This document shows positions 15,486 through 62,934 of a stretch of 64,000 nt of DNA, piece after piece. Source of the DNA: Salipiger pentaromativorans (lineage in GTDB: Bacteria; Pseudomonadota; Alphaproteobacteria; Rhodobacterales; Rhodobacteraceae). The notes beneath the pieces are model-generated. The model searched no databases. It saw only the letters and a list, made by a program, of their open reading frames with translations, and was not told where the DNA came from. The DNA is taken from assembly GCF_024721115.1 (NCBI RefSeq), contig NZ_JAMDHK010000001.1:556762-620761 (forward strand). Direction: 5' to 3'. A program made the translations under genes and the position numbers. How positions within the stretch are numbered: the first letter of the stretch is position 1; every line of letters starts with the position of its first letter.

Positions 15486-15519
15486 GGCCCAAGATTTTTC
15501 GTCCGAAAAATCTTGGGCC
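15486..15519. repeat. palindromic 3'-end element, long type (single copy)
   Basis: A perfect 15-bp stem with a GTCC loop fills the space between the convergent BASS gene and cbbR, ending on the base before the cbbR stop codon. Its central 32 bases differ at only one position from an element at 37842-37873, so it belongs to a dispersed family. The A/T-rich inner stem (AAGATTTTTC / GAAAAATCTT) stands out from the surroundings. It is likely to act as a bidirectional terminator. Confidence 0.8.
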
Positions 15520-16452
15520 TCACGCCGGAGGCCAATGCGGCAGAAAGTCGTCCTTCTCCGCCGCGATGAACTCCCAGACGGTGCGCGCGGCGCCGCTCAG
15601 CGGCGCATCCGCCGGATGCAGCAGGAACCAGTGCCGCACGATCGGCAGCCCCGGCAGATCGAGGGTCACCAACCGCCCGGTGCGCAGCTCCTCCACCACC
15701 GTGTGATAAGAGATCAGCGCCAGACCCAGCCCCGCGATCACCGCCTGCTTGATCGTCTCGTTGGTGCCCATCTCGGCGCGCTCATAGGTCTTGCCCTCGC
15801 CGATCCGGTCGAGGAACCGCGTCGCCAGAATCCGCGTGCCCGAACCCTGCTCGCGCATCAGGATCGTCTCCTTCAGCACCTCCTCGGGGGTGATCTGCGC
15901 CGCATGCGCCAGCGGGTGATCGGGCGGCGCGATCAGCACATGCGGGTGATCGCCCAGCGAGATCGCCTCGAGCGGCGGGTCGCGCGGCGGCCGCCCCATG
16001 ATCGCCAGATCCAGTGCCCCGTCCTGCAACGCCGAAATGATCGTGTCGCGGTTGCCGATCTGAAGCAGCACCTCGATCTCGGGGCAGCTCCTGCGCAACC
16101 GCGCCACAATCCCCGGCGCGAAATATTTCCCGGTCGAGACCACCCCCAGAACCACCGTCCCGGCGAGCCCCTTTTGCAGCGCATCGATTCGGCGCACCGC
16201 CAGGCGCAATCCCGCATCGGCCTTCTCATAGGCCTGCAAAAGCACCCTGCCCTCGGGGGTTGCGACAAAAGGCCCTGCCCCCTCCCGCGACAGCATGGCA
16301 CAGCCAAAAGTCTCGTCCAGCGTCTTGAGCTGGCTGTGCACCGCCGGTGCCGTCAGCCCCAGCTCTTCCGCAGCCCGGGAAATTGATCCTGTCCGATCAA
16401 CGGCTTCCAGCGCGCGAAGCTGTTTGAAGGTCAGAGAGGCCAATCTGCGCAT
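15520..16452 (-). CDS. cbbR: LysR-type regulator CbbR
   Basis: Transcriptional activator of the Calvin cycle operon, 310 residues. The winged HTH occupies about residues 1-65 (LTFKQLRALEAVDRTGSISRAA pattern), followed by a linker helix and a co-inducer domain beginning at GTVVLGVVSTGKYFAPGIV, which is characteristic of CbbR. It is divergent from cbbF with a 100-bp gap that contains two CbbR-box-like sites; the CbbR start codon directly abuts the first site, so autoregulation is expected. Family members sense RuBP, NADPH or other metabolites. Confidence 0.93.
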   Translation of the reverse strand: MRRLASLTFKQLRALEAVDRTGSISRAAEELGLTAPAVHSQLKTLDETFGCAMLSREGAGPFVATPEGRVLLQAYEKADAGLRLAVRRIDALQKGLAGTVVLGVVSTGKYFAPGIVARLRRSCPEIEVLLQIGNRDTIISALQDGALDLAIMGRPPRDPPLEAISLGDHPHVLIAPPDHPLAHAAQITPEEVLKETILMREQGSGTRILATRFLDRIGEGKTYERAEMGTNETIKQAVIAGLGLALISYHTVVEELRTGRLVTLDLPGLPIVRHWFLLHPADAPLSGAARTVWEFIAAEKDDFLPHWPPA

Positions 16453-16486
16453 TCATTTTTCCTGAAACGAGGGTCAGAATTTTTAA
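16453..16486. promoter_or_regulatory. candidate CbbR binding sites
   Basis: Two copies of the TNA-N7-TNA core described for CbbR boxes occur in the cbbR-cbbF gap: TCA-N7-TGA starting at 16453 and TCA-N7-TAA starting at 16474. The copies are exactly 21 bp apart, two helical turns, as expected for a LysR tetramer on one DNA face. The second sits in an A/T-rich island (to about 16497), which may also hold the cbbF promoter. Confidence 0.6.
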
Positions 16487-16552
16487 ATTTTCTTACAAGC
16501 CGCAATTCCCATGATCAAGCCTCAGTCACCCGTCGAGGAGGAGGAGGCCTTG

Positions 16553-17560
16553 ATGACCGGCATGAACCCCTATTCCGCAGATGCGCCGATTCCGGCCCGC
16601 CTGCGCCCCGCCATGGAGGCGCTTGGCCGCGTCGGACGCGATCTCGCCCGGCGCATCGCCCGCGGCCCGCTCGAAGGTCAGCTTGCCGCCGCCGTCGGCG
16701 ACAACGCCGGCGGCGATCAGCAAAAGGCGCTGGATGTGATGGCCGACGAGGCCTTTGCCCGCGAACTCAAGGGCAGCGGCGTGCGCTGGTATGCCTCCGA
16801 AGAGCAGGATGTCGTGGTCGAGATCGACGCTGGCGGCCCGCTGGCGCTGGCCATCGACCCGCTGGACGGCTCGTCGAACATCGAAACCAACGTCTCGATC
16901 GGCACGATCTTTTCGATCCGCGAGGCCCGCGAGGACGGCGAAGAGACCTTTCTGCGCCCGGGCCACGAACAGATCGCGGCGGGATATATCATCTACGGCC
17001 CGCAATGCATGATGCTCGTCACCTTCGGCACCGGCGTGCAGGATTACATCCTCGACCCCGACACCGGCCTCTTCACGCTGGTGAACAGCGCGCTGACCAT
17101 CTCGCAGGAAAGCGCCGAATTCGCCATCAACGCCTCGAACTACCGCCACTGGCCCAAGCCCGTGCGCGCCTATATCGACGATTGCCTCGCCGGTGCCGAG
17201 GGGCCGCGCGAGAAGAATTTCAACATGCGCTGGATCGCGTCGCTGGTGGCCGAAACCCACCGCATCCTGATCCGCGGCGGCCTGTTCCTCTATCCCGGCG
17301 ACGACCGCCCGGGCTATGCCATGGGCCGGCTGCGCATGGTCTATGAATGCGCACCGATCGCGATGCTGGTCGAACAGGCCCATGGCCGGGCCACCGACGG
17401 CACCACGCGCATTCTCGATAAGATCCCCGGCGCGCTGCACGCCCGCACGCCCTTTGTCTTCGGCTCGTCGGTCAAGGTCGACCGGGTCTGCGCCTATTTC
17501 GATCTTCCCGAGCAGGAAGTCTCCGCCCTTTTCGGCAATCGCGGCCTGTTCCGCGCCTGA
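16553..17560 (+). CDS. cbbF: fructose-1,6-bisphosphatase class I (Calvin cycle)
   Basis: Hydrolyses fructose 1,6-bisphosphate (and, in many autotrophs, sedoheptulose 1,7-bisphosphate) in RuBP regeneration. The 335-residue protein carries the metal/phosphate motif [14 protein letters not shown] near residue 100 and the catalytic-end region [22 protein letters not shown]. The ATG directly after a strong GGAGGAGGAGG was preferred to an in-frame ATG 14 codons upstream. It is the first gene of the cbb operon, 100 bp from cbbR. Confidence 0.95.
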
Positions 17561-17591
17561 CGCCGCCCCGGACAGAAAGACAACAGGTTCC

Positions 17592-18464
17592 ATGAGCAAG
17601 AAACACCCGATCATCTCCGTCACCGGCTCGTCCGGCGCGGGCACGACCACGGTCAAGGCGACCTTCGACCAGATCTTCCGCCGCGAGGGCATCTCGGCGG
17701 TGAGCATCGAGGGCGACGCCTTTCACCGCTACAACCGCGCCGACATGAAAGCCGAGCTGGAAAACCGCAAGGCCGCCGGCGACGAGACCTTCTCGCATTT
17801 CTCCTATGACGCCAACGAGCTGGGCGAGCTGGAGACGATCTTTCGCACCTATGGCGACACCGGCACCGGCCGCACCCGCCATTACATCCACGACGACAAG
17901 GAGGCCGAGCGCCACGGCACGCCGCCGGGCCATTTCACCGACTGGAAGCCCTTTGCCGACGACAGCGACCTGCTGTTCTACGAGGGGCTGCACGGCGCGG
18001 TGGTCAATGACGAGGTGAACCTCGCGGCGCATGCGGATCTCAAGATCGGCGTGGTGCCGGTGATCAATCTCGAATGGATTCAGAAGATCCACCGCGACAA
18101 GGCTTCACGCGGCTACACCACCGAGGCGGTGACCGATACGATCCTGCGCCGGATGCACGCCTATGTGCACTGCATCTGCCCGCAATTCGTTGAAACGGAT
18201 GTGAATTTCCAGCGCGTTCCGGTGGTCGACACCTCCGACCCGTTCATCGCGCGCTGGATCCCCACCGCCGATGAAAGCCTCGTGGTGATCCGCTTCAAGA
18301 ACCCCAGGGGCATCGACTTTCCCTATCTCACGTCGATGATCCAGAACTCCTGGATGAGCCGGGCGAATTCCATCGTGATCCCCGGCGGCAAGATGGACCT
18401 CGCCATGCAGCTCATCTTTACGCCGATGGTCCAGCGGCTCGTCAACGAATCCAAGCGCGCGTGA
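17592..18464 (+). CDS. cbbP: phosphoribulokinase
   Basis: Phosphorylates ribulose 5-phosphate to RuBP, the CO2 acceptor. The 290-residue size and the sequence match bacterial class I PRK, the octameric type activated by NADH. The P-loop GSSGAGTT is at residues 12-19, followed by the [16 protein letters not shown] substrate region and YEGLHGAV, the Walker B equivalent. It starts 31 bp after cbbF and lies 11 bp before cbbT. Confidence 0.97.
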
Positions 18465-18475
18465 AGGAGACCCGG

Positions 18476-20461
18476 ATGACCATTCAGCAAAAGATCTCGA
18501 CCACTGCCGAAGACCTCATGGCCAACGCGATCCGCGCGCTTGCCATGGATGCGGTGCAGGCGGCGAAATCGGGCCATCCCGGCGCGCCGATGGGCATGGC
18601 CGATGTGGCCACCGTGCTTTTCAACCGCTTCATGAACGTCGATCCGAAAGATCACAAATGGCCCGACCGCGACCGCTTTGTGATGAGCGCGGGCCATGGC
18701 TCGATGCTGGTCTACGCGATCAACCACCTGCTGGGCTATGACGACATGCCCATGGCGCAGCTGCGCAATTTCCGCCAGCTCGGCGCGCGCACCGCGGGGC
18801 ATCCGGAATACGGCCACGCCAAGGGGATCGAGACCACCACCGGCCCGCTGGGTCAGGGCATCTCCACCGCCGTCGGCATGGCGCTGGCCGAGCGCATGAT
18901 GAACGCGCGCTTCGGCACCGATCTGGTCGATCACTATACCTATGTGATCGCCGGCGACGGCTGTCTCATGGAGGGGATCAGCCACGAGGCCATCGACCTT
19001 GCCGGCCACCTCAAGCTGTCGCGCCTCATCGTGCTGTGGGACGACAACGGCATCACCATCGACGGCGGCACGGAGCTTTCGACCTCCACCGACCAGAAGG
19101 CGCGTTTCGCCGCCGCCGGCTGGGACGTGCGCGCGGTGGACGGGCACGACAAGGATGCGGTGGCCGCCGCCATCGAGGCGGCGCGCGCCAGCGACCGCCC
19201 CTCGATGATCGCCTGCAAGACGGTGATCGGTTTCGGCGCGCCCAACATGCAGGGCACCCATTCCGTGCATGGTGCGCCGCTCGGCGATGCGGAAATCGCC
19301 GCCACCCGCGAGGCGCTCGGCTGGAACCATCCGCCCTTCGAGATCCCGCAAGAGGTCTATGACGGCTGGCGCGCGATTGCCGCGCGCGGGTCCGAGGCGC
19401 GCGAATCCTGGTCCCGGCGGCTGTTCAACAGCCCCAATGCCGACAGCTTCCGCGCCGCCCACGCGCCGGTGGACACCCAGGCGCTGGACGCGGCGATCTG
19501 CGCCTACAAGCACCGTCTCTCCGAAGACCAGCCCAAGGTCGCGACCCGGAAAGCCTCGGAAATGGCGCTGGAAATCGTCAACGGCACCCTGCCCAACACG
19601 GTCGGCGGCTCGGCGGATCTGACCGGCTCGAACAACACCAAAACCAAGGGGCAGACCCCGATCAAACCCGGCGACTATGCCGGCAGCTACATCCATTACG
19701 GCATCCGCGAACACGGCATGGCCGCCGCGATGAACGGCCTTGCGCTGCATGGCGGGCTGAAGCCCTATGGCGGGACCTTCCTGGTGTTCGCCGATTACTG
19801 CCGCCCGGCGATGCGGCTGTCGTCGCTGATGGGCGTCCCGGTGGTTTATGTCATGACCCATGACAGCATCGGGCTGGGCGAGGACGGTCCGACCCACCAG
19901 CCCGTAGAAACCATCGCCTCCCTGCGCGCCATGCCGAACCATCTGGTCTTCCGCCCTGCCGACGCGGTGGAAACCGCCGAGGCCTGGCAGATCGCCATGG
20001 AACAGACGACCACCCCCAGCACGCTGGCGCTGTCGCGGCAGGGTCTGCCCACGCTGCGCACCCGCCACACCGACACCAACCTCTCCGCCCGCGGCGCCTA
20101 TCTGCTGCGCGACCCGTCGCGCCGCGACGTGACGCTCATCGCCACGGGTTCCGAGGTGGAACTCGCGCTCAGCGCCGCCGAGATGCTGGAAAAGGACGGG
20201 CTCCGGGCTGCCGTGGTCTCGGCCCCCTGTTTCGAACTCTTCGCGCAGCAGGACCAGAGCTATCGCGACGAGGTTCTGGGCGAGGCCCCCCGCATCGGGA
20301 TAGAGGCCGCGATCCGGCAGGGCTGGGATCTCATGCTGCGCCCCGAGGACGGGTTCATCGGCATGACCGGCTTTGGCGCCTCGGCCCCGGCGCCGGATCT
20401 CTACCGCCATTTCGGCATCACGGCAGAGGCGACGACCGACCTCGCCAAACAACTGATGTAA
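18476..20461 (+). CDS. cbbT: transketolase
   Basis: Thiamine diphosphate enzyme transferring two-carbon units in RuBP regeneration, 661 residues, standard length. The ThDP motif begins [13 protein letters not shown] and ends near LWDDN (residues about 160-190). The pyrimidine domain contains [15 protein letters not shown] and [20 protein letters not shown], which carries a conserved active-site His. It starts after GGAGACCCGG. Its position between cbbP and gap indicates a dedicated Calvin-cycle copy; another housekeeping copy may exist elsewhere. Confidence 0.96.
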
Positions 20462-20479
20462 AATACAAAAGGGACTGGA

Positions 20480-22689: not shown

Positions 22690-22702
22690 GGGAGGACCGA
22701 GA

Positions 22703-23782: not shown

Positions 23783-25270
<1,488 letters not shown>

Positions 25271-25280
25271 CGCCAAGGGG

Positions 25281-25347
25281 GCGGCCGGGACAAATCTCTT
25301 CGAAGAGATTTGCAAATTCCTTGGAAGGAATTTGCGCTCCCGGCCGC
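25281..25347 (+). repeat. predicted three-way junction: two abutting palindromes inside an outer stem
   Basis: Two 22-nt palindromes abut (25291-25312 with TCTTCGAAGA at its centre, perfectly self-complementary; 25313-25334 with CCTTGGAAGG at its centre, 10-bp stem with a GG middle). They are enclosed by a perfect 10-bp outer stem, GCGGCCGGGA (25281-25290) with TCCCGGCCGC (25338-25347). RNA from this region should fold into a three-way junction between cbbL and cbbS. There is no T-tract. It could protect the cbbL mRNA end, mark a processing site, or attenuate transcription. Confidence 0.8.
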
Positions 25348-25384
25348 ACCGGACGCGCCACAGACCAGCTCAAGGAGACAAGAT

Positions 25385-25774
25385 ATGCGTATCACTCAGG
25401 GGTGCTTTTCCTTCCTGCCCGACCTCGACGACACCCAGATCACCGCGCAGGTGGAATACATGCTCAGCCGCGACTGGGCGGTGAGCGTCGAATATGTCTA
25501 CGATCCCCACCCGCGGAACACCTATTGGGAAATGTGGGGCCACCCGATGTTCGACCTGCGCGATGCCAAGGGGGTGATGATGGAGCTCGACGAGTGCCGC
25601 AAGGCGCATCCCGACAGCTATATCCGCCTGCAGGCCTTCGACAGCACACGCGGTTTCGAAACGGTGATGATGTCCTTCATCGTCAACCGCCCGCCGGAAG
25701 AGCCCAAGCTGCACATGCAGCGGACCGATTTCGAGGGCCGGTCCCAGAAATACGCCTGGGACGCGCGCTATTGA
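25385..25774 (+). CDS. cbbS: RuBisCO small subunit, red-type
   Basis: Small subunit of the L8S8 RuBisCO, 129 residues. It begins MRITQGCFSFLPDLDD and includes QVEYMLSRDWAVSVEYVYDPHPRNTYWEMWGHP, with the WEMWG segment typical of small subunits. The C-terminal extension (IVNRPPEEPKLHMQRTDFEG) forms the extra hairpin of red-type enzymes. The ATG follows AAGGAGAC. The preceding 114-bp gap and the following terminator-like hairpin frame it as its own RNA segment. Confidence 0.97.
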   Translation: MRITQGCFSFLPDLDDTQITAQVEYMLSRDWAVSVEYVYDPHPRNTYWEMWGHPMFDLRDAKGVMMELDECRKAHPDSYIRLQAFDSTRGFETVMMSFIVNRPPEEPKLHMQRTDFEGRSQKYAWDARY

Positions 25775-27478: not shown

Positions 27479-28033
27479 ATGGCCGTCATCCCGCCGATCT
27501 GCAATTTCGGCTGGCAGGCGCCGGGCTTTTTCCTGCCCGGCACCGACGGCCGCGCCTATGGCTACAAGGACATCGCCGGCCCCCGCGGCACGCTGGTCAT
27601 GTTCATCTGCAACCACTGCCCCTATGTCCTGGCCGTGCTCGACCGCATCCTGCGCGACGCGCGGGATCTGCAGCGGCTGGGCATCGGCGTGGCGGCGATC
27701 TCCTCAAACGATGCCGAAGCCTACCCGCAGGACAGTTTCGAGAACATGAAGGCCCTGGCGGTCGCGCGGGGCTTCCCCTTCCCCTATCTCTACGACGAGG
27801 CCCAGGGCGTGGCCCGCGCCTATGGCGCCGCCTGCACCCCCGATTTCTTCGGCTTCGATGCCGGGGGCGGGCTGCAATATCGCGGCAGACTCGACGCCTC
27901 GCGCAAAGAGGCCGGTCCTCCGGATCTCCGGCGCGAGCTTTACGAGGCGATGCGGCTCGTGGCCGAAACCGGTCACGGACCGCAAGAGCAGATCCCCTCC
28001 ATGGGCTGCTCGATCAAATGGAAGGCCGCCTGA
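27479..28033 (+). CDS. thioredoxin-fold protein with CNHC motif in the cbb operon
   Basis: AhpC/TSA-like thioredoxin-fold protein of 184 residues without a signal peptide, so cytosolic. The motif FICNHCPYV places a CxxC pair at Cys44 and Cys47. Later landmarks are AISSNDAEAYPQDS, FPYLYDEAQGVARAYGAACTPDFFGFD with an extra Cys, and a C-terminal PSMGCSIKWK. Such proteins are widespread but mostly uncharacterised thiol oxidoreductases or peroxiredoxins. It begins 4 bp after rpe, so it is co-transcribed with carbon fixation genes. A redox role for cycle enzymes is possible but is inference. The 110-bp gap to cbbZ holds a 23-nt repeat. Confidence 0.85.
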   Translation: MAVIPPICNFGWQAPGFFLPGTDGRAYGYKDIAGPRGTLVMFICNHCPYVLAVLDRILRDARDLQRLGIGVAAISSNDAEAYPQDSFENMKALAVARGFPFPYLYDEAQGVARAYGAACTPDFFGFDAGGGLQYRGRLDASRKEAGPPDLRRELYEAMRLVAETGHGPQEQIPSMGCSIKWKAA

Positions 28034-28051
28034 GACGCACCGTCCCCTGCG

Positions 28052-28074
28052 CTTCTTCTCTTTCCAAATACGCA
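28052..28074. repeat. 23-nt intergenic repeat, copy 1
   Basis: The 23 bases starting CTTCTTCTCTTTCC and ending AAATACGCA recur without mismatch at 59638-59660. This copy lies between the thioredoxin-like gene and cbbZ. Read on the minus strand it begins TGCGTATTTGG; a related form, GGCGTATTTTCAGAAAGATGAA, follows the cbbS hairpin at 25814 on the plus strand. Function unknown. Confidence 0.7.
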
Positions 28075-28143
28075 CCGGCCCCCCGATGCCAGCGACGTCC
28101 CCTCCGCCGCCCGGGCGCGGCCCCGTCCCGAAGGATCCCTGCC

Positions 28144-28809
28144 ATGAAAGCCATCGTCTTCGACCTCGACGGCACGCTGATCGACAGCGCCCCCGATCTG
28201 CATCTCGCCGCCAATCTGGTGCTGCGGGACGAAGGTCTGCCCGAGATCACCTTCGCGCAGGCGCGCAGCTTTATCGGCAAGGGCGCCGGGGTGCTGATCA
28301 GCCGCGTCATGGATACAGTCGGGCTGGGCGACGATCCCGCCGAACACGCCCGGCTGCTGGCCAAGTTCATGACCCATTACGAAGGCGAGCCCGCCCACAC
28401 CCTTGTCTATCCCGGCGTCATGGACGCGCTGGCCCGGCTCGAGGCGATGTCCTGTTCCATGGGGCTCTGCACCAACAAGCCGGAGGAACCGACCCGGATC
28501 GCCCTGCGCCATTTCGGGTTCGACCGGTTTCTGAGCAAGGTCGCCAGCGCCGACACCCTGCCCCAGCGCAAACCCGACCCCGCGCCGCTGCTGCATGTGA
28601 TGCGCGACCTTGGCGCGGACAGCGCGCTTTACGTCGGCGACAGCGAAGTGGACGCGGAGACCGCCGAACGCGCGGGTGTGCCCTTCGCGCTTTACACCGA
28701 AGGCTATCGCAAGACCCCCGTCTCGGAGATGTATCACAGCTACGCCTTCGATCATTTCGACGCGCTGCCGGATCTGGTGGCACGCCATTTCTCCGAGATC
28801 CGCGCATGA
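28144..28809 (+). CDS. cbbZ: phosphoglycolate phosphatase (CbbZ/Gph)
   Basis: HAD-superfamily phosphatase of 221 residues that removes 2-phosphoglycolate made by RuBisCO oxygenation. Motif I FDLDGTLID has nucleophile Asp7 and acid/base Asp9; motif II is the CTNK threonine; motif III is KPDP; and motif IV is YVGDSEVDAE. The Gph-like phrase FIGKGAGVLI supports phosphoglycolate over other substrates. The ATG was chosen because the region upstream, although open, is repeat-containing spacer. It overlaps cbbY by four bases. Confidence 0.93.
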   Translation: MKAIVFDLDGTLIDSAPDLHLAANLVLRDEGLPEITFAQARSFIGKGAGVLISRVMDTVGLGDDPAEHARLLAKFMTHYEGEPAHTLVYPGVMDALARLEAMSCSMGLCTNKPEEPTRIALRHFGFDRFLSKVASADTLPQRKPDPAPLLHVMRDLGADSALYVGDSEVDAETAERAGVPFALYTEGYRKTPVSEMYHSYAFDHFDALPDLVARHFSEIRA

Positions 28810-29501
28810 CGCTGCGGGCGCTCATCTTCGATGTGGACGGCACGCTGGCCGAGACCGAAGAGGCGCATCGCTTGGCCTTCAACGAGACGTTCTCCGCCCG
28901 GGGGCTCGGCTGGCACTGGACGCGGGACGATTACCGGCGCCTGCTGAAGACCACCGGCGGCAAGGAGCGCATCCGCGCCTATCTCGCGGAACGCGGCGCA
29001 TCGGAGGACGGGCTCGATATTGCCGCTCTGCACGCCGCCAAGACCACGCGCTATGTGGAGATCCTCGAGAGCGGCGGGCTGGCGCTGCGCCCCGGCGTGG
29101 GCGATCTGGTCGCGGCGGCGCGGAATACGGGGCTGCGGCTGGCGGTGGCCACCACCACGAGCCGCCCGAATGTCGAGGCGCTGTGCCGCTGCTGCTGGGG
29201 CCGGCCCGGCGAAGCGGTCTTCGATGTGATCGCCGCGGGCGACGAGGTGGCCGCGAAGAAACCCGCGCCGGATGTCTACGACCTTGCGCTGAAGCGGCTG
29301 GGCCTGCCCGCCGCGCTGGCCCTGGCGCTGGAGGACAGCCGCAACGGTGTGCTCTCGGCGCAGGCGGCGGGGCTGCGGGTGATCGTCACGCCCTCGGTCT
29401 ATACCGAGGACGAGGATTTCGGCGCGGCGGAGGTTCTGGCCTCGCTCGCACCGGCAGAGCTGCCCGTCGATCTGCGCGCAGCCCTCGCCCCGCGCGCCTG
29501 A
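28806..29501 (+). CDS. cbbY: HAD phosphatase CbbY (xylulose-1,5-bisphosphatase family)
   Basis: HAD protein of 231 residues, overlapping cbbZ (ATGA). Motif I is FDVDGTLAETEEAHR with Asp9 and Asp11, motif II ATTTSRPN, motif III KKPAPDVY and motif IV LEDSRNG. The cap residues in TTGGKERIRAYL are characteristic of CbbY rather than Gph. The Rhodobacter homologue dephosphorylates xylulose 1,5-bisphosphate, a misfire inhibitor of red-type RuBisCO, so it works with CbbX to keep the enzyme active. Last recognisable cbb gene, followed by a tandem palindrome. Confidence 0.93.
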   Translation: MTLRALIFDVDGTLAETEEAHRLAFNETFSARGLGWHWTRDDYRRLLKTTGGKERIRAYLAERGASEDGLDIAALHAAKTTRYVEILESGGLALRPGVGDLVAAARNTGLRLAVATTTSRPNVEALCRCCWGRPGEAVFDVIAAGDEVAAKKPAPDVYDLALKRLGLPAALALALEDSRNGVLSAQAAGLRVIVTPSVYTEDEDFGAAEVLASLAPAELPVDLRAALAPRA

Positions 29502-29502
29502 C

Positions 29503-29546
29503 CAAATTCCTTCAAAGGAATTTGCAAGACTCTTCGAAGGGTCTTG
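29503..29546. repeat. tandem palindromes at the end of the cbb operon (22-nt type)
   Basis: Two abutting 22-nt palindromes follow the cbbY stop by one base. The first (29503-29524) is identical in its 10-base arms to the second one in the cbbL-cbbS gap (CAAATTCCTT / AAGGAATTTG). The second (29525-29546) has arms CAAGACTCTT / AAGGGTCTTG with one G-T pair. They lie between convergent cbbY and the methyltransferase and may terminate both. Confidence 0.8.
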
Positions 29547-37661: not shown

Positions 37662-37761
37662 GTCGAGAGGTTGGCGCGGGCAGGCGCCTCGCCAACCCGG
37701 TCAGGTCCGGAAGGAAGCAGCCGTAACGAGCCCCGCTTGGGTCGTTGTCCAGCCTCTCACT
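37662..37761 (+). ncRNA. ffs: signal recognition particle 4.5S RNA
   Basis: The universally conserved SRP core is visible: GGTCAGGTCCGGAAGGAAGC followed by AGCC. The outer helix pairs GAGAGGTTGG at the 5' side with CCAGCCTCTC at the 3' side, and a lateral stem GTTGGCG/CGCCAAC lies near the 5' end. Length is about 100 nt, as for bacterial 4.5S RNA, which binds Ffh and directs membrane protein targeting. End positions are approximate. A GCGGCC/GGCCGC hairpin at 37770-37784 may terminate it. Confidence 0.93.
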
Positions 37762-37841: not shown

Positions 37842-37903
37842 GCCCAAGATTTTTCATCCGAAAAATCTTGGGCCCTAAAAAATTCGAACGAATTTTTTAG
37901 GGC
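37842..37903. repeat. tandem palindromes after the SRP RNA (32-nt type)
   Basis: Two perfect 14-bp stems with 4-nt loops (37842-37873, loop ATCC; 37872-37903, loop GAAC) share two bases. The first is 31/32 identical to the element beside cbbR. The pair lies between the SRP RNA region and the convergent phosphatase gene, 3 bp from the latter's stop codon, and may terminate from both sides. Confidence 0.8.
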
Positions 37904-37906: not shown

Positions 37907-38416
37907 TCACTCCTCGTGCCGCAGGAAAACCGCGGCCTCGCGCCGGGCCGCCATCGCCCAGGCCATCTGTCCCTGGGTTTCCACCGCGCAGGGGCGCACC
38001 GACCGCAGCCGCGCCAGCGCCTCGTCCGGCGCCTCGCCGGATTCGATCATCAGCCTTAGCGCGATCATGCCAGACCGACCGCAGCCGCCCCGGCAATGCA
38101 CCAGCACCCGCCCGCCCCCGAGCAGCGCCCGCCGCGCAAAACCGCTGACCTCCGGCCAGCGGCCCTGCACCTCCGCCCCCGGTGCGCCGAAATCGAGGAT
38201 CGGCAGATGCTCCCAGCGGCCGCCATGCTCGAGCACATGCCGACCGATCCCGCCGGCCCCCGCGCCCGCCAGCTCGACATCGGTCACCAGCGAGATCACC
38301 AGCGCCGGGCGCCATTCGGTGATATGCGCCATATCCGCCGCAAAATCGCCCTCGCGCCCCGGCAGCGGCGCAAGGGCGAGAATGCCGCCCGCGACGGGAA
38401 GGGCATGGATGATCAT
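37907..38416 (-). CDS. tyrosine/dual-specificity phosphatase-like protein
   Basis: Cytosolic protein of 169 residues with the cysteine phosphatase signature HCRGGCGRSG, placing the nucleophile at Cys108 and the phosphate-binding arginine at Arg114 (CX5R). The upstream aspartate in LPILDFGAPG may be the general acid. It resembles compact CDKN3-like bacterial phosphatases. The target is unknown. The ypfJ-like stop lies 2 bp upstream, so the two probably share a transcript. Confidence 0.85.
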   Translation of the reverse strand: MIIHALPVAGGILALAPLPGREGDFAADMAHITEWRPALVISLVTDVELAGAGAGGIGRHVLEHGGRWEHLPILDFGAPGAEVQGRWPEVSGFARRALLGGGRVLVHCRGGCGRSGMIALRLMIESGEAPDEALARLRSVRPCAVETQGQMAWAMAARREAAVFLRHEE

Positions 38417-40876: not shown

Positions 40877-41119
40877 GGTCGGTTACCTCCGTGACCGCCC
40901 GATGGTCCGCTAAGCCGGGCGAAGGAAACCGAATTTTCGTCGAAAATCCGAACGGCAGGTGCGGGCGCTTTCCGCGGACCGGGCGGCCCCCTGCCGGCGG
41001 GCCTGGGTGCAGGATAGGTTAAAGCGCGCCCGGCGCAAACCGCTTTTCCGCGCCAGCCGGTTTACCTTGGCCCGCGCCGCGCATACCTTGGCCGCAACCC
41101 CGCAGCGCAAAAGGCCACC

Positions 41120-42880
41120 ATGTCCGACCAGAGCCCGAAATATCAGGTCCTCGCCCGCAAGTACCGCCCCGAGACCTTTGCCGATCTCGTCGGTCAGGAC
41201 GCCATGGTGCGCACGCTGAAAAACGCCTTCAAGGCCGGGCGCATCGCGCAGGCCTTTATCATGACCGGCATTCGCGGCACCGGGAAGACCACCACCGCGC
41301 GGATCATCGCCAAGGGCATGAACTGCATCGGCCCCGACGGCAATGGCGGCCCCACCACCGAGCCCTGCGGCCAGTGCGAGCATTGCACCGCGATCATGGA
41401 AGGCCGCCATGTCGATGTGATGGAGATGGACGCGGCCTCGAACACCGGGGTCAACGACATCCGCGAGATCATCGACTCGGTGCATTACCGGGCGGCCTCG
41501 GCGCGCTACAAGATCTACATCATCGACGAGGTGCACATGCTCTCGACCAGCGCGTTCAACGCGCTGCTCAAGACGCTGGAAGAGCCGCCCGCACATGTGA
41601 AATTCATCTTCGCCACGACCGAGATCCGCAAGGTGCCGGTGACCGTGCTGAGCCGCTGCCAGCGCTTCGACCTGCGCCGGATCGAGCCCGAGGTGATGAT
41701 CGCGCTTCTGCGCAAGATCGCCACCTCCGAAGAGGCCGAGATCAGCGACGACGCGCTGGCGCTCATCACCCGCGCCGCCGAAGGCTCGGCCCGCGACGCG
41801 ACCTCGCTGCTGGATCAGGCAATCTCGCATGGCGCCGGTGAGACCACCGCCGAGCAGGTGCGCGCCATGCTGGGGCTCGCGGACCGGGGCCGGGTGATGG
41901 ATCTTTTCGAGAAGATCATGCATGGCGACGCGCCCGGCGCGCTGACCGAGCTTTCGGAGCAATATGCCGACGGTGCCGACCCGCTGGCGGTGCTGCGCGA
42001 TCTGGCAGAGCTGACGCACTGGACCTCGGTGGTCAAGATCACGCCGGAAGCGGCCGAAGACCCGACCATTTCGCCCGACGAGCGCGCGCGCGGCCAGGCG
42101 CTGGCGGCCAATCTCGGCATGCGGGCGCTGACCCGCATGTGGCAGATGCTGCTCAAGGCGCTGGACGAGGTGGCGCAGGCGCCCAACGCGATGATGGCCG
42201 CCGAGATGGCGGTGATCCGCCTCACCCATGTGGCCGAGCTGCCCTCGCCCGAGGAGCTGCTGCGCAAGTTGCAGGACACCCCGCCTCCGCCCAACCCGGG
42301 CCCGGGCGGAGGCGGCGGCTATGCCCGTGGGCCCTCGGGCGGCGCCCATGCGATGGGCGGCCCGGCGCCGACCCACGCGGCGCCCTCCGGCCCGGTCGCG
42401 CATCAGGGCAATGCCGTCCGCGCGCTGGCCCCCGAGGCGGCGCTGGCGCGCTATCCCAGCTTCGACCATGTGATCGAGCTGATCCGCGCCAATCGCGACG
42501 GGCTGTTGCTGGCGCAGGTGGAACGCCATGTCCGGCTGGCGGCCTATCAGCCCGGCCGCATCGAATTCACCCCGGCCGAAAACGCGCCGGCGGATCTGGC
42601 GCAGAAGCTCGGCTCTGCGCTGCAACGCTGGACCGGCAACCGCTGGGCGGTCATCCTGGTCAACGACTGCGACGCGCCGACGGTCTATGAAAAGGAACAT
42701 GCCGCCGAGCTGGCGCTGAAGGCCGAGGCGCGCGAACACCCGCTGGTGCAGGCCGCGCTGGCCGTCTTTCCCGATGCCGAGATCCTCCAGGTGCACACCC
42801 CCGAAGAGGCCGCGCAGGAAGCGACCGCCGAGGCGCTGCCCGAGGTCGAGGACGAATGGGACCCGTTCGAGGAAGACTGA
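41120..42880 (+). CDS. dnaX: DNA polymerase III subunit gamma/tau
   Basis: Clamp-loader ATPase of 586 residues. Walker A GIRGTGKT is at 50-57, zinc-binding cysteines at 69, 83, 86 and 89, and Walker B YIIDEVHMLS follows, with the arginine-finger motif LSRCQRFDLR. After about residue 385 comes a Pro/Gly-rich linker and a tau-type C-terminus ending in acidic EVEDEWDPFEED. I see no A-rich slippery heptamer, so a shorter gamma form by frameshifting is unlikely. The next gene is convergent, so the common dnaX-ybaB-recR order is absent here. Confidence 0.96.
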   Translation: MSDQSPKYQVLARKYRPETFADLVGQDAMVRTLKNAFKAGRIAQAFIMTGIRGTGKTTTARIIAKGMNCIGPDGNGGPTTEPCGQCEHCTAIMEGRHVDVMEMDAASNTGVNDIREIIDSVHYRAASARYKIYIIDEVHMLSTSAFNALLKTLEEPPAHVKFIFATTEIRKVPVTVLSRCQRFDLRRIEPEVMIALLRKIATSEEAEISDDALALITRAAEGSARDATSLLDQAISHGAGETTAEQVRAMLGLADRGRVMDLFEKIMHGDAPGALTELSEQYADGADPLAVLRDLAELTHWTSVVKITPEAAEDPTISPDERARGQALAANLGMRALTRMWQMLLKALDEVAQAPNAMMAAEMAVIRLTHVAELPSPEELLRKLQDTPPPPNPGPGGGGGYARGPSGGAHAMGGPAPTHAAPSGPVAHQGNAVRALAPEAALARYPSFDHVIELIRANRDGLLLAQVERHVRLAAYQPGRIEFTPAENAPADLAQKLGSALQRWTGNRWAVILVNDCDAPTVYEKEHAAELALKAEAREHPLVQAALAVFPDAEILQVHTPEEAAQEATAEALPEVEDEWDPFEED

Positions 42881-54169: not shown

Positions 54170-54202
54170 ACCGGCCATGCCCTCCCGCCGTCGCGAGGAC
54201 GT

Positions 54203-55084: not shown

Positions 55085-55086
55085 TA

Positions 55087-55103
55087 TGATACCTCATGTA
55101 TCA
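55087..55103. promoter_or_regulatory. inverted repeat upstream of LysR (operator candidate)
   Basis: TGATAC-CTCAT-GTATCA is a perfect inverted repeat 3 bp before the LysR start codon, including an ATAC-N5-GTAT core like LysR boxes. A further half-site, GTATCA, lies at 55145-55150, nearer the rightward genes. This spacing suits dual control of lysR and the divergent transcript. Confidence 0.55.
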
Positions 55104-55182
55104 CTCCGATATTTTAGTTTCTTAGCATGAGTGAACAAAAAAGGGTATCAGCTGGATATGTGAAAAACAGGAGCGTCTCAAA

Positions 55183-55398: not shown

Positions 55399-55558
55399 GC
55401 GTGCCATACCGGGCCGGACTCGATTTGCTCGGAGGGCCGCTGCGACAACGGCCTTCATGGAGAAGACATCCCCCGGTCTGAGGGCCGCCCGACGCAGATT
55501 TCAGAAAGCCCGCCCAAGGAGGCCCACCGGGCCAGATGACAGAGACAGGAGACACGCC

Positions 55559-56041: not shown

Positions 56042-56130
56042 CCCAAACAATCGCCATTCGAGCAGTTCCCGGCACCGGAACGTCTGCTCAGGGCCACGCC
56101 ATAGCCATTGCGACCGGCGACGGGCAAACG

Positions 56131-56164
56131 AACGGCCTCGGAGGTTCCCCCGAGGCCGTTTCTT
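56131..56164 (+). terminator. terminator after the VOC gene
   Basis: AACGGCCTCGG and CCGAGGCCGTT form a perfect 11-bp stem with an 8-nt loop, followed by TCTT. It lies about 90 bp after the VOC stop, facing the convergent nrdJ. Confidence 0.65.
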
Positions 56165-56234
56165 CAGAGCAGCCGACGAAATGGCCGTCTAGCCCTGCCG
56201 CATGGCTCGCTACAAACTGACGGTCAGCCCACAC

Positions 56235-58520: not shown

Positions 58521-58544
58521 GGGGCGCTGTTCTCCTGACATGAC

Positions 58545-58571
58545 AAAAAAAGCCGGGCGATTCCCGGCTTT
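58545..58571 (-). terminator. intrinsic terminator/attenuator in the nrdJ leader
   Basis: On the minus strand AAAGCCGGG pairs with CCCGGCTTT across a 5-nt loop, followed by seven T residues, ending 25 bases before the nrdJ start. No minus-strand gene lies just upstream, so transcripts reaching nrdJ from the promoter candidate at 58583-58611 must pass it. This looks like a premature terminator controlling nrdJ; its partner signal is not visible. Confidence 0.75.
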
Positions 58572-58582
58572 GATGGAGAAAG

Positions 58583-58611
58583 AGTGTACGCCAGAGACCC
58601 GCGAACCACAA
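58583..58611 (-). promoter_or_regulatory. candidate nrdJ promoter
   Basis: On the minus strand TTGTGG and TACACT are separated by 17 bp. The expected start site falls a few bases before the attenuator hairpin. About 26 bp further upstream, a sequence containing ACAATATCT (near 58637-58650) partly matches the NrdR box left half; only one copy is seen. Confidence 0.4.
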
Positions 58612-58668
58612 CAGCTTGAAGCCCGCGCTCAGCCCCCTACAATATCTGAGCGCCCTGTGGAGGACTCA

Positions 58669-59100
58669 GTGGATAAGCTCACCCATCTCATCAAGCTCAG
58701 CGTCGGCACCGAGAGCGTCGAAAGCCTCGCCGCCTGGCAGGCCACCCGCGCGGCGCAGACCGGGGACGGGCTGCCCTGCCATGTGACGCGGATGTTTCCC
58801 CGCCGCGAGGCCGAGGTGCTGAACGGCGGCAGCATCTACTGGGTGTTCCAGGGGCTGGTGCAATGCCGCCAGCGCATTCTCCGGCTCGACCGGGTGACCG
58901 GCAGCGACGGCATCGACCGCTGTGCGATCGTGCTGGATCCCGCGCTGATCCGCGTCGCCCCCGCGCCGCGCCGCCCGTTCCAGGGCTGGCGCTACCTCGC
59001 CCCGCAGGACGCGCCGCCCGATCTCTCCGAGACCCGCCAGAGCGAGGATACCCTGCCGCCGGAGCTGGCGGGCGCGCTGGCCGAGATCGGCGTGCTCTGA
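58669..59100 (+). CDS. DUF1489-family protein
   Basis: Protein of 143 residues, an alphaproteobacterial family of unknown function. Characteristic phrases are HLIKLSVGTESVESL, VTRMFPRREAEVLNGGSIYWVFQGLVQCRQ and RPFQGWRYLAPQDAPPDL. A GTG start with GGAGG five bases earlier is the best choice; there is no nearby ATG. It is divergent from nrdJ and tail-to-tail with the YdcF-like gene. Confidence 0.85.
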   Translation: MDKLTHLIKLSVGTESVESLAAWQATRAAQTGDGLPCHVTRMFPRREAEVLNGGSIYWVFQGLVQCRQRILRLDRVTGSDGIDRCAIVLDPALIRVAPAPRRPFQGWRYLAPQDAPPDLSETRQSEDTLPPELAGALAEIGVL

Positions 59101-59119
59101 CGCTGGCCGTCCGGCGCCC

Positions 59120-59623
59120 CTACCGCCCCGCCCCGCGCAACAGATACCACAGATAGGCCGGCAGCTCGCGCAGCGCCGCCCTAAGTTGGCTACGCAACCG
59201 CGCGCCCCTCAGCGAAGGCGCCGTCCCGCACGCCACCAGCCCCGCACGCCGCGCCACCAGCAGCGCCCTTGGCAGATGGTAAAGATCCGTCACGACCACC
59301 ACCTCCCGCGCGCCCAGCTCCGCCAGCACCGGCAGGGCGAAGCGGATGTTCTCCTCCGTCGTGACCGAACGATCCTCAAGAAACACCGCCGTCTCCGGCA
59401 CCCCGGCACCCGTGCACAGCGCCGCAATCACCTCGGCCTCCGTCGGCGGATACCGCCCGAGCCCGCCACAGCCGACAACCGTCCGCACCGCCCCCTGCCG
59501 CCACAGCTCGGCCGCCTTCAGCGCCCGCCGCCGCAGCGTCGGCGAGGGCTCGCCCCCCGGCCAGACCGCCGCGCCCAGCACCAGTGCAACAGGCCGCCGC
59601 TCCTCCGAGACCTCCGGTTCCAC
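59120..59623 (-). CDS. YdcF/ElyC-family (DUF218) protein
   Basis: Protein of 167 residues. VALVLGAAVWPGGEPSPTLRRRALKAAEL at the start, VGCGGLGRYPPTEAEVI, TTEENIRFALPVLAELG, and VVVTDLYHLPRALLVARRAG are DUF218 hallmarks (SanA/ElyC/YdcF, often linked to envelope functions). I chose a GTG with AGGGG seven bases upstream. A longer start at 59653 would take in the intergenic 23-nt repeat as coding sequence, which is unlikely. No membrane helix is clear. It follows the BMP transporter genes. Confidence 0.78.
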   Translation of the reverse strand: MEPEVSEERRPVALVLGAAVWPGGEPSPTLRRRALKAAELWRQGAVRTVVGCGGLGRYPPTEAEVIAALCTGAGVPETAVFLEDRSVTTEENIRFALPVLAELGAREVVVVTDLYHLPRALLVARRAGLVACGTAPSLRGARLRSQLRAALRELPAYLWYLLRGAGR

Positions 59624-59637
59624 GCCCAAACCCCTGT

Positions 59638-59660
59638 CTTCTTCTCTTTCCAAATACGCA
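59638..59660. repeat. 23-nt intergenic repeat, copy 2
   Basis: Identical to the copy at 28052-28074. Read on the minus strand it begins TGCGTATTTGG directly after a run of seven T residues that may end the BMP transcript, and it lies just before the YdcF-like gene. Confidence 0.7.
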
Positions 59661-59739
59661 AAAAAACCGACCGCCCAAACGGCGACACCGCCCGCGCTTG
59701 CGCGCCGACGGTGCCACAGGTCTCACATGAAAACGAGGT

Positions 59740-60810
59740 TCAGTTCGGAATGTCGCCCGTCACGCCCTCGACGTAAAAGCTCATGCCCGCCAGCGTGCCG
59801 TCATCGGCCACCTCGCCCTCGGCCAGCCAGGCCGAGCCGTCCTGCTTGTTCAGCGGGCCGGTGAAAGGATGATAGGCGCCCGAGGCGATGTCTTCCTTCA
59901 TCTGGGTGACGGTGGCCACGACGTCATCGGGGATCGGTCCGGTGAACTCGCCGATGCCCACCATGCCGGCGCCGATGCCGTCCCAGGTGTTCACGCTCTC
60001 CCAGCTGCCGTCGATCACCGCCTGCACGCGCTCGATGTAATAGGGCGCCCAGTCGTCGATGATCGACGAGATGCGCGGCTCGGGCTTGTACTCCTCCATG
60101 TCGGCGGCCTGACCGAAGCCATAGGCACCGGCCTTTTCCAGCACCGCCAGAGGCGCGGTGGAGTCCGTATGCGCCAGCACCACATCCGCGCCCTGATCGA
60201 GCAGCGCCTGGGTGGCGTCGGCCTCTTTCGCCGGATCGAACCAGGTCGAGATCCAGACCACCGCGATCTCCACATCCGGGTTCGCCTTCTTGGCGTGGAT
60301 GTAGGACGAGTTGATGCCCCGGATCACTTCGGGGATCGGGAAGGAGGCGATATAGCCGATCTTGTTGGTCTTGGTCATCGCCCCGGCCAGATAGCCGGTG
60401 ATCGCGCGGCCCTCGTAGAAGCGCGCGGAATAGACCGAGACGTTCGGCGCCTGCTTGTAGCCGGTGGCGTGCTCGAATTTCACATCCGGGAACTTGGCCG
60501 CGACGTTGATCGTCGGGTCCATGTAGCCGAAGGAGGTGGTGAAGATCAGATCGGCGCCGGACAGCGCCATCTGGGTCAGCACGCGCTCGGCATCCGCACC
60601 CTCGGGCACCGATTCCTGTTCGATGAGCTCGATCGCGTCGCCGAAATGCTCTTTCATCTTCATCGCGGATTCATGGTGGTGCTGCGACCAGCCGCCATCG
60701 TTCACCGGGCCCACATAGACAAAGCCGATCTTCGGCACGTCCTGGGCAAAACCGGCGCCCGCCGCAAGGCTCAGCGCGGCGGCCGAAGCCAGAAGGGTTC
60801 TGCGTTTCAT
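59740..60810 (-). CDS. BMP-family ABC transporter substrate-binding protein
   Basis: Periplasmic basic-membrane-protein family binding protein of 356 residues. A signal peptide (cut near GFA-QDV, residue 22) precedes PKIGFVYVGPVNDGGWSQHHH, typical of BMP purine-nucleoside-like binding proteins, and DLIFTTSFGYMDP, where aromatic residues stack on the base. No lipobox is present. With two permeases and a double ATPase upstream, it forms a nucleoside- or purine-type importer. The exact ligand is not determined. Confidence 0.9.
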   Translation of the reverse strand: MKRRTLLASAAALSLAAGAGFAQDVPKIGFVYVGPVNDGGWSQHHHESAMKMKEHFGDAIELIEQESVPEGADAERVLTQMALSGADLIFTTSFGYMDPTINVAAKFPDVKFEHATGYKQAPNVSVYSARFYEGRAITGYLAGAMTKTNKIGYIASFPIPEVIRGINSSYIHAKKANPDVEIAVVWISTWFDPAKEADATQALLDQGADVVLAHTDSTAPLAVLEKAGAYGFGQAADMEEYKPEPRISSIIDDWAPYYIERVQAVIDGSWESVNTWDGIGAGMVGIGEFTGPIPDDVVATVTQMKEDIASGAYHPFTGPLNKQDGSAWLAEGEVADDGTLAGMSFYVEGVTGDIPN

Positions 60811-60864
60811 AGTACTCGGTCTCCCTGTCTTTCTGTACTGTTTATAGCTGTTTGAACGGCCCCG

Positions 60865-61773
60865 TCAGGACGCGGCGTGGAACGGGCGGCCCAAGGATCC
60901 AGGCGCACCATGCGCCCCTCGGGCCGAGATGATCACCAGCACGATGATCGTTATCAGGTATGGCGACATGGACAAGAGCTCCACCGGCACCGTGGTGCCC
61001 GCCGCCTGAAGGTTGAGCTGGATGACCGTGACGCCGCCGAAGAGATAGGCCCCGATCAGCACGCCCAGCGGCCGCCAGGAGGCAAAGACCACGATGGCCA
61101 GCGCGATCCAGCCGGCACCCGCGGTCATGCCCTCGGTCCATTGCGGCACCCGCACGAGGCTCACATAGGCGCCGCCCAGTCCGGCGCAAGCGCCGCCGAA
61201 GGCAATCGCCATCATCCGCACCCGCACCACCTTGTAGCCCAGCGCATGGGCGCTTTCGTGGTCCTCGCCCACCGCGCGCAGGATGAGGCCCGCGCGGGTG
61301 TATTTCAGAAAGGCCCAGACCGCCGCCACTAGCGCAAGACTCAGATAGACCACGAAGTCATGGGCAAAAAGCATCGGCCCGAGGGTCGGAATATCGCCCA
61401 GCCCCGGAATATCGAGCTTGGCAAGGCTCGGCGCCCGCTGACCCTCGTAATTCGAGCCGATCAGCGCCGAAAGCCCCAGGCCAACCAGCGTGAGCCCGAG
61501 CCCCGTCGCCACCTGGTTCGACAGCAGGTATTGAGTCAGCAGACCGAAGGCGAGCGAGAACACCGCCGAGGCGATGGCCGCGCCAAGAAACCCCAGCACC
61601 GGCGAGCCGCTCGAGACGGCGATGGCAAAGCCCATCACGGCGCCGACGATCATCATCCCCTCGACGCCGAGGTTCAGCACGCCGGATTTCTCGACGACCA
61701 TCTCGCCGATGGCGGCCAGCAGGATCGGCGTGGCCGAGACCATGATCGAGGCGACAAGCAGCACGGGATCCAT
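60865..61773 (-). CDS. BMP-type ABC transporter permease (second)
   Basis: Membrane protein of 302 residues with eight to ten helices (BPD_transp_2 family), e.g. LLAAIGEMVVEKSGVLNLGVEGMM near the start and LILRAVGEDHESAHALGYKVVRVRM, the cytoplasmic coupling loop. Its ATG overlaps the first permease's stop by one base. The binding-protein gene starts 54 bp after its stop. Confidence 0.92.
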   Translation of the reverse strand: MDPVLLVASIMVSATPILLAAIGEMVVEKSGVLNLGVEGMMIVGAVMGFAIAVSSGSPVLGFLGAAIASAVFSLAFGLLTQYLLSNQVATGLGLTLVGLGLSALIGSNYEGQRAPSLAKLDIPGLGDIPTLGPMLFAHDFVVYLSLALVAAVWAFLKYTRAGLILRAVGEDHESAHALGYKVVRVRMMAIAFGGACAGLGGAYVSLVRVPQWTEGMTAGAGWIALAIVVFASWRPLGVLIGAYLFGGVTVIQLNLQAAGTTVPVELLSMSPYLITIIVLVIISARGAHGAPGSLGRPFHAAS

Positions 61774-62858
61774 CAGGCCACCTCCCTTCCGGTCAGCCGG
61801 ACGCGGTAATTGGTAAAGACATCTGTCGCCAGCAGGAAGAACAGCAGCATCCCCTGGAATAGCTGGATCGACGCGCCGGGCAGGCCCAGCATGAGCTGCG
61901 CCAGCTCGCCGCCGATATAGGTCAGCGCCATGAGCAGCCCGGCGAGCAGAATGCCGAACGGGTTCAGCCGTCCGAGAAAGGCCACGATGATCGCGGTGAA
62001 GCCATAGCCCGAGTTGAAGTCGATGCTGATCTGGCCCGCGGGCCCGGTGACCTCGAAAAGCCCCGCCATGCCCGCCAGCGCCCCCGAGATGCCGAGGCAG
62101 AGAAAAATGATCCGCGCCGGGCTCACGCCCGAGAACCGCGCCGCGCGCGGCGCCTCGCCGGTCAGCCGGATGTTGAAGCCCTGGATGTGCCGCGCCATCA
62201 GCACATAGGCCGCGATCACCGCGATGAAGGCCGCGACCACGCCCCAGTGCATGCCGGTGTTGATCACCAGCTCGTCATTGTAGACCGAGGCCCATTGCTT
62301 GAAATTGCGCGATCCGGGAAAGCCCATGCCCTCGGGATTGCGCAGCCAGCCCGCCGAGGCGGAGGCGAGAATGTTCTCGGCCACATAGACCAGCATCAGC
62401 GAGACGAGAATCTCGTTGGTGCCGAAGCGGGTCTTGAGAAAGGCCGGGATCATCGCCCAGGCCCAGCCGCCCAGCGCGCCTGCGATGGCCATGAGCGGGA
62501 ACAAAAGCCAGGTGTCGGCGGGGTAGAAGGCCAGCCCCACGGCGGCCCCGCAGACCGCGCCCATGATGTACTGCCCCTCGGCACCGATGTTCCAGATGCC
62601 CGCGCGAAAGCCCACCGACAGGCCGATGGCGATCAGGATCAGCGGCCCGGCCTTGACCAGAAGCTGCGGCCGCGAATAGCCGGCGAATTGCGGGTGAAAC
62701 AGCGGATCCCAGAAAATCGTGCGGATCGCCTCCAGCGGCGGCTTGCCAAGCAGCGCGAACATGATGCCGCCCACCAACATGGTCAGAACCACCGCCAGAA
62801 CGGGTGTGAGCGCGGTCCAGAGCCGCGACGGGTTGGGGCGTTTTTCCAGCCGGATCAT
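61773..62858 (-). CDS. BMP-type ABC transporter permease (first)
   Basis: Membrane protein of 361 residues, BPD_transp_2 family, with ten or so helices. Typical phrases are GLSVGFRAGIWNIGAEGQYIMGA and the coupling-loop region RLTGEAPRAARFSGVSPARII. The N-terminus (IRLEKRPNPSRLW) is cytosolic. The pair of palindromes separates it from the ATPase gene upstream in the operon. Confidence 0.92.
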   Translation of the reverse strand: MIRLEKRPNPSRLWTALTPVLAVVLTMLVGGIMFALLGKPPLEAIRTIFWDPLFHPQFAGYSRPQLLVKAGPLILIAIGLSVGFRAGIWNIGAEGQYIMGAVCGAAVGLAFYPADTWLLFPLMAIAGALGGWAWAMIPAFLKTRFGTNEILVSLMLVYVAENILASASAGWLRNPEGMGFPGSRNFKQWASVYNDELVINTGMHWGVVAAFIAVIAAYVLMARHIQGFNIRLTGEAPRAARFSGVSPARIIFLCLGISGALAGMAGLFEVTGPAGQISIDFNSGYGFTAIIVAFLGRLNPFGILLAGLLMALTYIGGELAQLMLGLPGASIQLFQGMLLFFLLATDVFTNYRVRLTGREVA

Positions 62859-62877
62859 TGCAGATGCTCCGGGCCCA

Positions 62878-62934
62878 GAAGATTTTTCGTACGAAAAATC
62901 TTCGCCGCGAAGAAATTTCGTACGAAATTTCTTC
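62878..62934. repeat. tandem palindromes within the BMP operon (26-nt type)
   Basis: Two perfect 26-nt palindromes, both centred on TTTCGTACGAAA (62878-62903 and 62909-62934), with a GCCGC spacer. On the coding (minus) strand they begin 8 bp after the ATPase stop codon and end 19 bp before the permease start, so they interrupt an operon rather than close it. They may attenuate or stabilise the polycistronic mRNA. Confidence 0.8.

Follow-up and report, generated by a model that had tools for sequence, protein, structure and literature searches.

AT-core palindromes at gene 3′ ends of Salipiger and related bacteria as possible mRNA decay barriers

Why does a genome of 68% GC keep near-perfect palindromes with AT-rich centres just behind its stop codons? 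The question is raised by 64,000 nucleotides (nt) of the Salipiger pentaromativorans genome (contig NZ_JAMDHK010000001.1, positions 556,762 to 620,761), here called the window, which belongs to an assembly of 5.28 Mb in 39 contigs. A first-pass annotation, made from the letters of the window alone, had described five such loci. The AT-core palindromes, as we call them, are a recurrent element throughout this genome and in related species. They lie close behind stop codons, are frequently paired, change their arms in a compensating manner, are rarely followed by a T-rich tail and occur between classic operon partners. By analogy with the puf stem-loop and with repetitive extragenic palindromic (REP) hairpins, they may be mRNA hairpins which act as decay barriers at 3′ ends and between cistrons, an explanation to which we give about an even chance.

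Occurrence and placement of AT-core palindromes

On direct reading of the window all five loci proved exact in their coordinates (Table 1). They comprise nine palindromes, arranged as four pairs and one single, perfect palindrome (15486–15519), whose arms measure ten to sixteen bases and whose centres are rich in AT. Arms common to different loci (CAAATTCCTT and CCCAAGATTTTTC) are both present, and three stop codons (15520, 37907 and 62943) have the TGAGGC context on the minus strand. RNA folds predicted for the five loci have z-scores of −2.8 to −6.3; locus 15486–15519 reaches −26 kcal/mol with a z-score of −6.1.

A scan of the window with a score of at least 10 yielded 14 palindromes, compared to one to five in five dinucleotide shuffles with a top score of 13; on length alone, just the strongest window palindromes exceed the shuffles. 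When 461 kb of the source genome were scanned for symmetry alone (arms of at least 9, loops of at most 4), 19 AT-core palindromes were found versus a mean of 1.0 in five shuffles, and the 13 loci counted there by eye extrapolate to roughly 150 per genome. The core TTCGTNCGAA has 6 matches at 4 places in the window (0.36 expected), and the core TTTTCGNNCGAAAA occurs at 20 places in the whole genome, its backward control at one. The same palindrome family is present in related genomes, again well above shuffles. The view that these palindromes are not due to chance therefore holds for the window, the source genome and related genomes.

Within the genus of 20 species (genomes are cited by G numbers) the TTTTCGNNCGAAAA core is found in 16–31 copies in eight species, in 6–7 copies in two and in 0–1 copies in ten, the last group consisting of G001, G003, G004, G008–G011 and G013–G015. 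A second core in its strict form AAATTCCTTCGAAGGAATTT occurs in seven of the 20 species, three of which are among these ten and have 1–2 copies. At the three loci compared in G001 the elements are absent. A search of 295 genomes of the family detected AAATTCCTTNNAAGGAATTT in 25 genomes and GATTTTTCNNNNGAAAAATC in 21; among the matches listed, the backward controls were zero. Counted by genus, one core is present in 25 of 294 and the other in 20 of 294. In a poorly resolved tree of one 169-aa protein the carriers cluster, yet four changes are needed, and thus they appear not to form one clean clade. Plasmid searches with two of the pairs gave no match, the sensitivity being low for queries so short.

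The distances at the five loci agree with the claim that most of them lie within a few bases of a stop codon (Table 1): locus 15486 is 3 nt past one stop codon and 0 nt from the convergent one, and 25291 is 20 nt past the cbbL stop. The location at gene 3′ ends thus stands, but it does not extend to ends of transcription units throughout, because 25291 (between cbbL and cbbS) and 62878 (between two ATP-binding cassette (ABC) transporter genes) are flanked by co-directional genes of apparent operons. Among 40 AT-core palindromes from samples of G000, G005 and G017, 23 are located in convergent, 11 in co-directional and 2 in divergent gaps, and 4 within genes; both divergent copies, all 4 genic ones and one co-directional copy do not resemble the family on visual inspection. 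The gap background in these samples is 164 convergent, 571 co-directional and 169 divergent; the scoring used to call these genes found each of the ten window genes that served as a check.

A larger set of 137 gaps from seven genomes, collected with two core patterns, consists of 71 co-directional, 63 convergent and 3 gaps called divergent, and none is genic. It includes every listed TTTTCGNNCGAAAA place in G000, G002, G005, G012, G018 and G019 and part of those in G017; the second pattern was counted only inside stretches already fetched. The three divergent gaps were kept in the count: two have no extended arms, and the strand was probably miscalled in the third (L365), as its co-directional orthologs indicate. 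Measured in co-directional gaps, the median distance is 10 nt from the stop codon to the first palindrome and 68 nt from the end of the last palindrome to the next start; in 66 of 71 the stop is closer than the next start. The median distance to the nearer stop in convergent gaps is 7 nt. Several bare matches to the 12-mer TTTCGNNCGAAA that have no longer arms were placed inside genes, according to labels from a gene caller with some strand errors. Scored relative to stop codons, related genomes show the 3′-end bias as well.

Pairing, arms and loops

Two AT-core hairpins are present in 83 of 134 gaps and one in the other 51. Often one member of a pair is near constant, with GATTTTTCG or CAAATTCCTT arms, and the other variable. 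Among 25 loci from 25 genomes that were chosen by their CAAATTCC arm, whose constancy is therefore by construction, 22 have an abutting or close partner bearing other arms, as judged by eye; 4 of the 25 were labelled genic by the error-prone caller. The constant hairpin is the second one in 10 of 13 ortholog groups, which is not significant. Where a palindrome stands alone, its arms tend, as an impression by eye, to be longer and GC-clamped.

By orthology, the 137 gaps form 54 groups. In 133 ortholog pairs, for which both orthologs needed a palindrome of score at least 7, 1745 pair positions are unchanged, 155 carry double changes that are still paired and 20 have a change in just one arm; in a control with the partner shifted by one position there were 89 double and 368 single changes. 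Compensating changes thus dominate, and the conserved symmetry noticed at the window loci recurs between species, whose arms differ with pairing kept.

GNNC loops have T as first or A as second of the two middle bases in all 145 cases, so that 7 of 16 dinucleotides are permitted; the query behind this set contained CGNNCG, which left only these two bases free. Ten of 155 loops, which stem from partner hairpins, are not GNNC and are outside the rule. Furthermore, species use different loop dialects: GTAC accounts for 33 of 37 loops in G005 and G012 versus 2 of 21 in G000 and G017, also at orthologous sites (Fisher p about 2e-9, for sites in related species that are not independent).

Operon partners and the question of termination

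Going by protein-family naming, AT-core copies are located between rpoB and rpoC, nuoC and nuoD, tolB and pal, the genes for the large and small subunit of acetolactate synthase, and urtD and urtE, in addition to the window copies between cbbL and cbbS and between two ABC transporter genes. Gene order and general knowledge suggest that these flanking genes are co-transcribed. Further copies lie between engB and argB, groEL and rnhB, and trxB and sat, which need not be operons. A hairpin was found in 13 of 30 rpoB-rpoC gaps from 30 genera (0.47 expected from shuffles) and an AT-core hairpin, by script rule, in 7 (0.19 expected); these gaps are the best 30 of 54 genomes with a match, out of 61 searched. 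Six of the seven were recognised by eye, and the seventh (L393) is probably a GTAG-type repeat.

Many of 80 cbbL-cbbS gaps are short, and AT-core palindromes are present in four species (L026, L028, L039, L046). Throughout 575 kb of cbb neighbourhoods, all six AT-core palindromes between two called genes sit in the cbbL-cbbS gap; five more are genic (3) or at a fragment edge (2). Where the source genome has an AT-core pair in this gap, G005 and G017 have GC-rich hairpins. That different hairpins can occupy one border suggests that the role is carried by the hairpin as such.

Judged by their sequence, AT-core palindromes are not canonical terminators. Position and predicted folds provide the stable hairpin at a gene 3′ end that is typical for intrinsic terminators; the U-tract is rare behind the AT-core hairpins. 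With AT-core hairpins counted once per ortholog group, a T-rich tail was present behind 1 of 25 first and 0 of 25 last ones; for GC-core hairpins from co-directional gaps of these genomes the figure is 11 of 85. The T fraction of the next 8 nt is 0.15 after first and 0.17 after last hairpins (25 ortholog groups), 0.17 in the background and 0.32 after GC-core hairpins. A terminator scan of two 20-kb stretches (14000–53999, including four of the five loci) reported none of the palindromes of these loci as a terminator stem, and it did list the imperfect copy at 40929–40951. Termination, which the first-pass annotation had considered, is thus not supported as the main role, because T-rich tails are rare and sites between operon partners require read-through.

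Table 1 Palindromes and neighbouring genes in the window
Feature	Position	Strand	Remark
Single AT-core palindrome, GGCCC AAGATTTTTCG type	15486..15519	.	Fills gap between two convergent stop codons
RuBisCO large chain gene cbbL, 5′ of pair	23804..25270	+	Pfam
Palindrome 1 of cbbL-cbbS pair, arm CAAATCTCTTCG	25291..25312	.	Window scan
Palindrome 2 of cbbL-cbbS pair, arm CAAATTCCTT	25313..25334	.	Outer GC-rich stem round pair in predicted fold
RuBisCO small chain gene cbbS, 3′ of same pair	25385..25774	+	Pfam PF00101
CAAATTCCTT-type palindrome	29503..29524	.	1 nt past stop of 27822-29501
Abutting partner, CAAGACTCTTCG type	29525..29546	.	Pair retained in G005, G012
Bacterial small signal recognition particle (SRP) RNA gene, directly upstream of 37843-37902 pair	37665..37761	+	Rfam RF00169
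CCCAAGATTTTTC-type palindrome, 3′ of SRP RNA gene	37843..37872	.	Retained in G005, G012, G017
Partner palindrome, CCCTAAAAAATTCG type	37873..37902	.	4 nt from stop of minus-strand gene 37907-38416
Imperfect extra copy	40929..40951	.	In last codons of predicted minus-strand open reading frame 40910-42796; absent from first-pass annotation
GAAGATTTTTCG-type palindrome between two minus-strand ABC transporter genes	62878..62903	.	Window scan
Partner palindrome, GAAGAAATTTCG type	62909..62934	.	8 nt past stop of 62943-63986; first in transcription order

The place orthologous to 62878–62934 carries a pair in four other species, with other partner arms in G019. In an Rfam scan of the window at gathering score the SRP RNA was the sole match, and the palindromes match no family. 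The closest named match of the window RuBisCO in the search made is that of Pseudooceanicola atlanticus (97% identity). A further GC-rich inverted repeat surrounds the cbbL-cbbS pair (25268–25350), and the predicted RNA forms a three-way junction. At 62865–62945 the predicted minimum-energy fold has both palindromes cross-paired in one long interrupted stem. A separate GC-rich dispersed palindrome, GGTGGGCAA..TTGCCCACC with its variants, is flanked by GTAG/CTAC and looks like a REP family; it also occurs in the cbbL-cbbS gap of G017 and in the rpoB-rpoC gaps L381, L389, L393 and L399.

Possible role and comparison with known systems

If the palindromes act as decay barriers, they would be transcribed together with the upstream gene and each would form an RNA hairpin in vivo just past the stop codon, often two in series. 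Such a hairpin, or pair of hairpins, would stop 3′-to-5′ nucleases behind the cistron. At the end of a transcription unit the hairpins would shield a 3′ end left by termination elsewhere (by Rho or after read-through) and trimming; within operons they would represent a decay barrier or a processing boundary between cistrons, and the message halves on either side could thereby have different lifetimes. The symmetry of each palindrome would let a single copy serve both mRNAs of a convergent pair. A hairpin as a barrier to 3′-to-5′ decay behind a cistron, or as the remaining 3′ end, is the model given for malE in part of one source (PMC5927463), and part of another discusses 3′-end data from R. 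sphaeroides in the same sense (PMC7866481).

Several observations weigh against this explanation. For a role in stability alone, AT-rich stems are ill suited to a genome of 68% GC, and the near-constancy of one arm type (GATTTTTCG) goes beyond what such a role requires. We see no reason for the GNNC loop rule in the stability of RNA hairpins; it suggests a factor that would read a symmetric site, either as DNA or as a structure. Loop orientation relative to transcription is strand-neutral (12 GNAC to 14 GTNC by ortholog group). Sense-strand mismatches, few in AT-core hairpins, are G-U in 3, A-C in 2 and other in 5 cases, compared to 16, 2 and 16 in unbiased GC-core hairpins. In an unbiased set of 16 AT-core hairpins the T fraction was 0.25, above background, with T-rich tails in 0 of 16. 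Finally, 10 of 20 species have 0–1 TTTTCGNNCGAAAA copies, so the role would have to be dispensable or replaceable.

The first-pass annotation had left the choice between a structural role in RNA and a protein-bound DNA site; position and the interchange of hairpins favour RNA, whereas the strand-neutral loop rule would be compatible with recognition of DNA. Dyad-symmetric sites at gene ends could be bound by a nucleoid protein, a gyrase-like or an unknown factor, as gyrase binds REP elements, which are reported as gyrase and IHF sites in part of one source (PMC1525189). Such binding would fit a loop rule that is followed in 145 of 145 cases with no strand preference, dialects that include orthologous sites, and a near-constant arm in one palindrome of a pair. 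Nevertheless we regard it as distinctly unlikely, as partner arms are free to change while symmetry is kept, placement tracks stop codons, and the same gaps are taken by other hairpins in other species. Unusual bidirectional terminators, tandem and U-less, which would act fully at convergent ends and only in part within operons, are unlikely too, if somewhat less so. Placement at 3′ ends, enrichment in convergent gaps, the short T run in which some first hairpins (GAAAAATCTTC...GAAGATTTTTC) finish, and the T fraction after unbiased AT-core hairpins would agree with them, as would the compensatory evolution of intrinsic terminators (described in part of PMC5381666). On the other hand T-rich tails are rare or missing in all AT-core sets, the copies between rpoB-rpoC, nuoC-nuoD, tolB-pal and cbbL-cbbS argue against full termination, and GC-core hairpins, some of them T-tailed, exist alongside, sometimes in the same gap.

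Selfish REP-like repeats spread by a transposase would also appear as short, often paired, extragenic palindromes in many copies and patchily over the family, and within the genus a Y1_Tnp gene occurs in G002, G007 and G016 only, all of them carriers. We consider this quite improbable, since seven of ten carriers (G000, G005, G006, G012, G017, G018, G019) have no match to Y1_Tnp (PF01797), the domain of a RAYT (Y1 transposase), copies hold orthologous sites while their arms diverge, and lone arms are rare. Template switching in replication yields compensating double changes without selection, and might have perfected neutral imperfect palindromes which are tolerated only outside genes. This would leave unexplained why the palindromes lie close to stops (66 of 71) and seldom in divergent gaps (2 of 40 and 3 of 137), why their arm vocabulary is repeated and why loops follow a rule, and has a very low probability in our view.

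Apart from the decay-barrier role as such, we tentatively propose, at a rather small probability, a two-part gene-end code of Rhodobacterales. A GATTTTTCGTNCGAAAAATC palindrome would be read by a trans-acting factor whose preference drifts between species, giving rise to the loop dialects, and would be combined with a hairpin of free sequence; jointly they might label where messages end and where cistrons meet in core operons (such as rpoBC, nuo and tol-pal).

Titles and abstract starts listed by searches of the open-licence literature contained no recognisable description of these palindromes or of Rhodobacter gene-end hairpins. If the decay-barrier explanation is true, many Rhodobacterales would set message borders in important operons by a common element which is undescribed in the literature searched, and cistron-level mRNA stability would become testable by sequence over many species. 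It would also mean that programs which look for terminators as GC stems with T tails can overlook a class of hairpins at gene ends.

The AT-core element would thus resemble an intercistronic decay barrier or a REP element, but it differs from REP elements in the absence of Y1_Tnp from seven of ten carriers and from intrinsic terminators in the rarity of the U-tract. With intrinsic terminators it has in common the hairpin past the stop codon, its sharing by convergent genes and compensatory evolution (for terminators, in part of PMC5381666); it differs by its AT-rich stem, the rare T-rich tail and its sites between operon partners. DNA uptake sequences were ruled out. They resemble the AT-core palindromes as inverted repeats at gene ends, in Neisseria and Haemophilus at terminators, and are also abundant as single copies, whereas here the arms vary and rarely stand alone: 49 of 55 hits of five arm words in three genome samples lie within palindromes (22 of 23 for AGATTTTTCG). 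REP elements and bacterial interspersed mosaic elements (BIME) are often paired, and REP elements have a GTAG signature beside the stem. Likewise, the AT-core palindromes are short, extragenic, present in many copies and often paired, many of them between convergent genes; in contrast they are AT-rich, their arms vary between copies with compensation, and by eye no GTAG was seen beside them. In part of one source REP elements are palindromic extragenic repeats of 21–65 nt, frequently between convergent genes (PMC1525189). The remaining counterpart is found in the same bacterial order: for the puf operon of Rhodobacter capsulatus, a study by Chen from 1988 that is cited in PMC5927463 reportedly, by its title, treats an intercistronic stem-loop as an mRNA decay terminator. 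As in puf, the hairpin here would be situated between co-transcribed genes; unlike the puf stem-loop, the AT-core palindromes are a genome-wide, often paired family.

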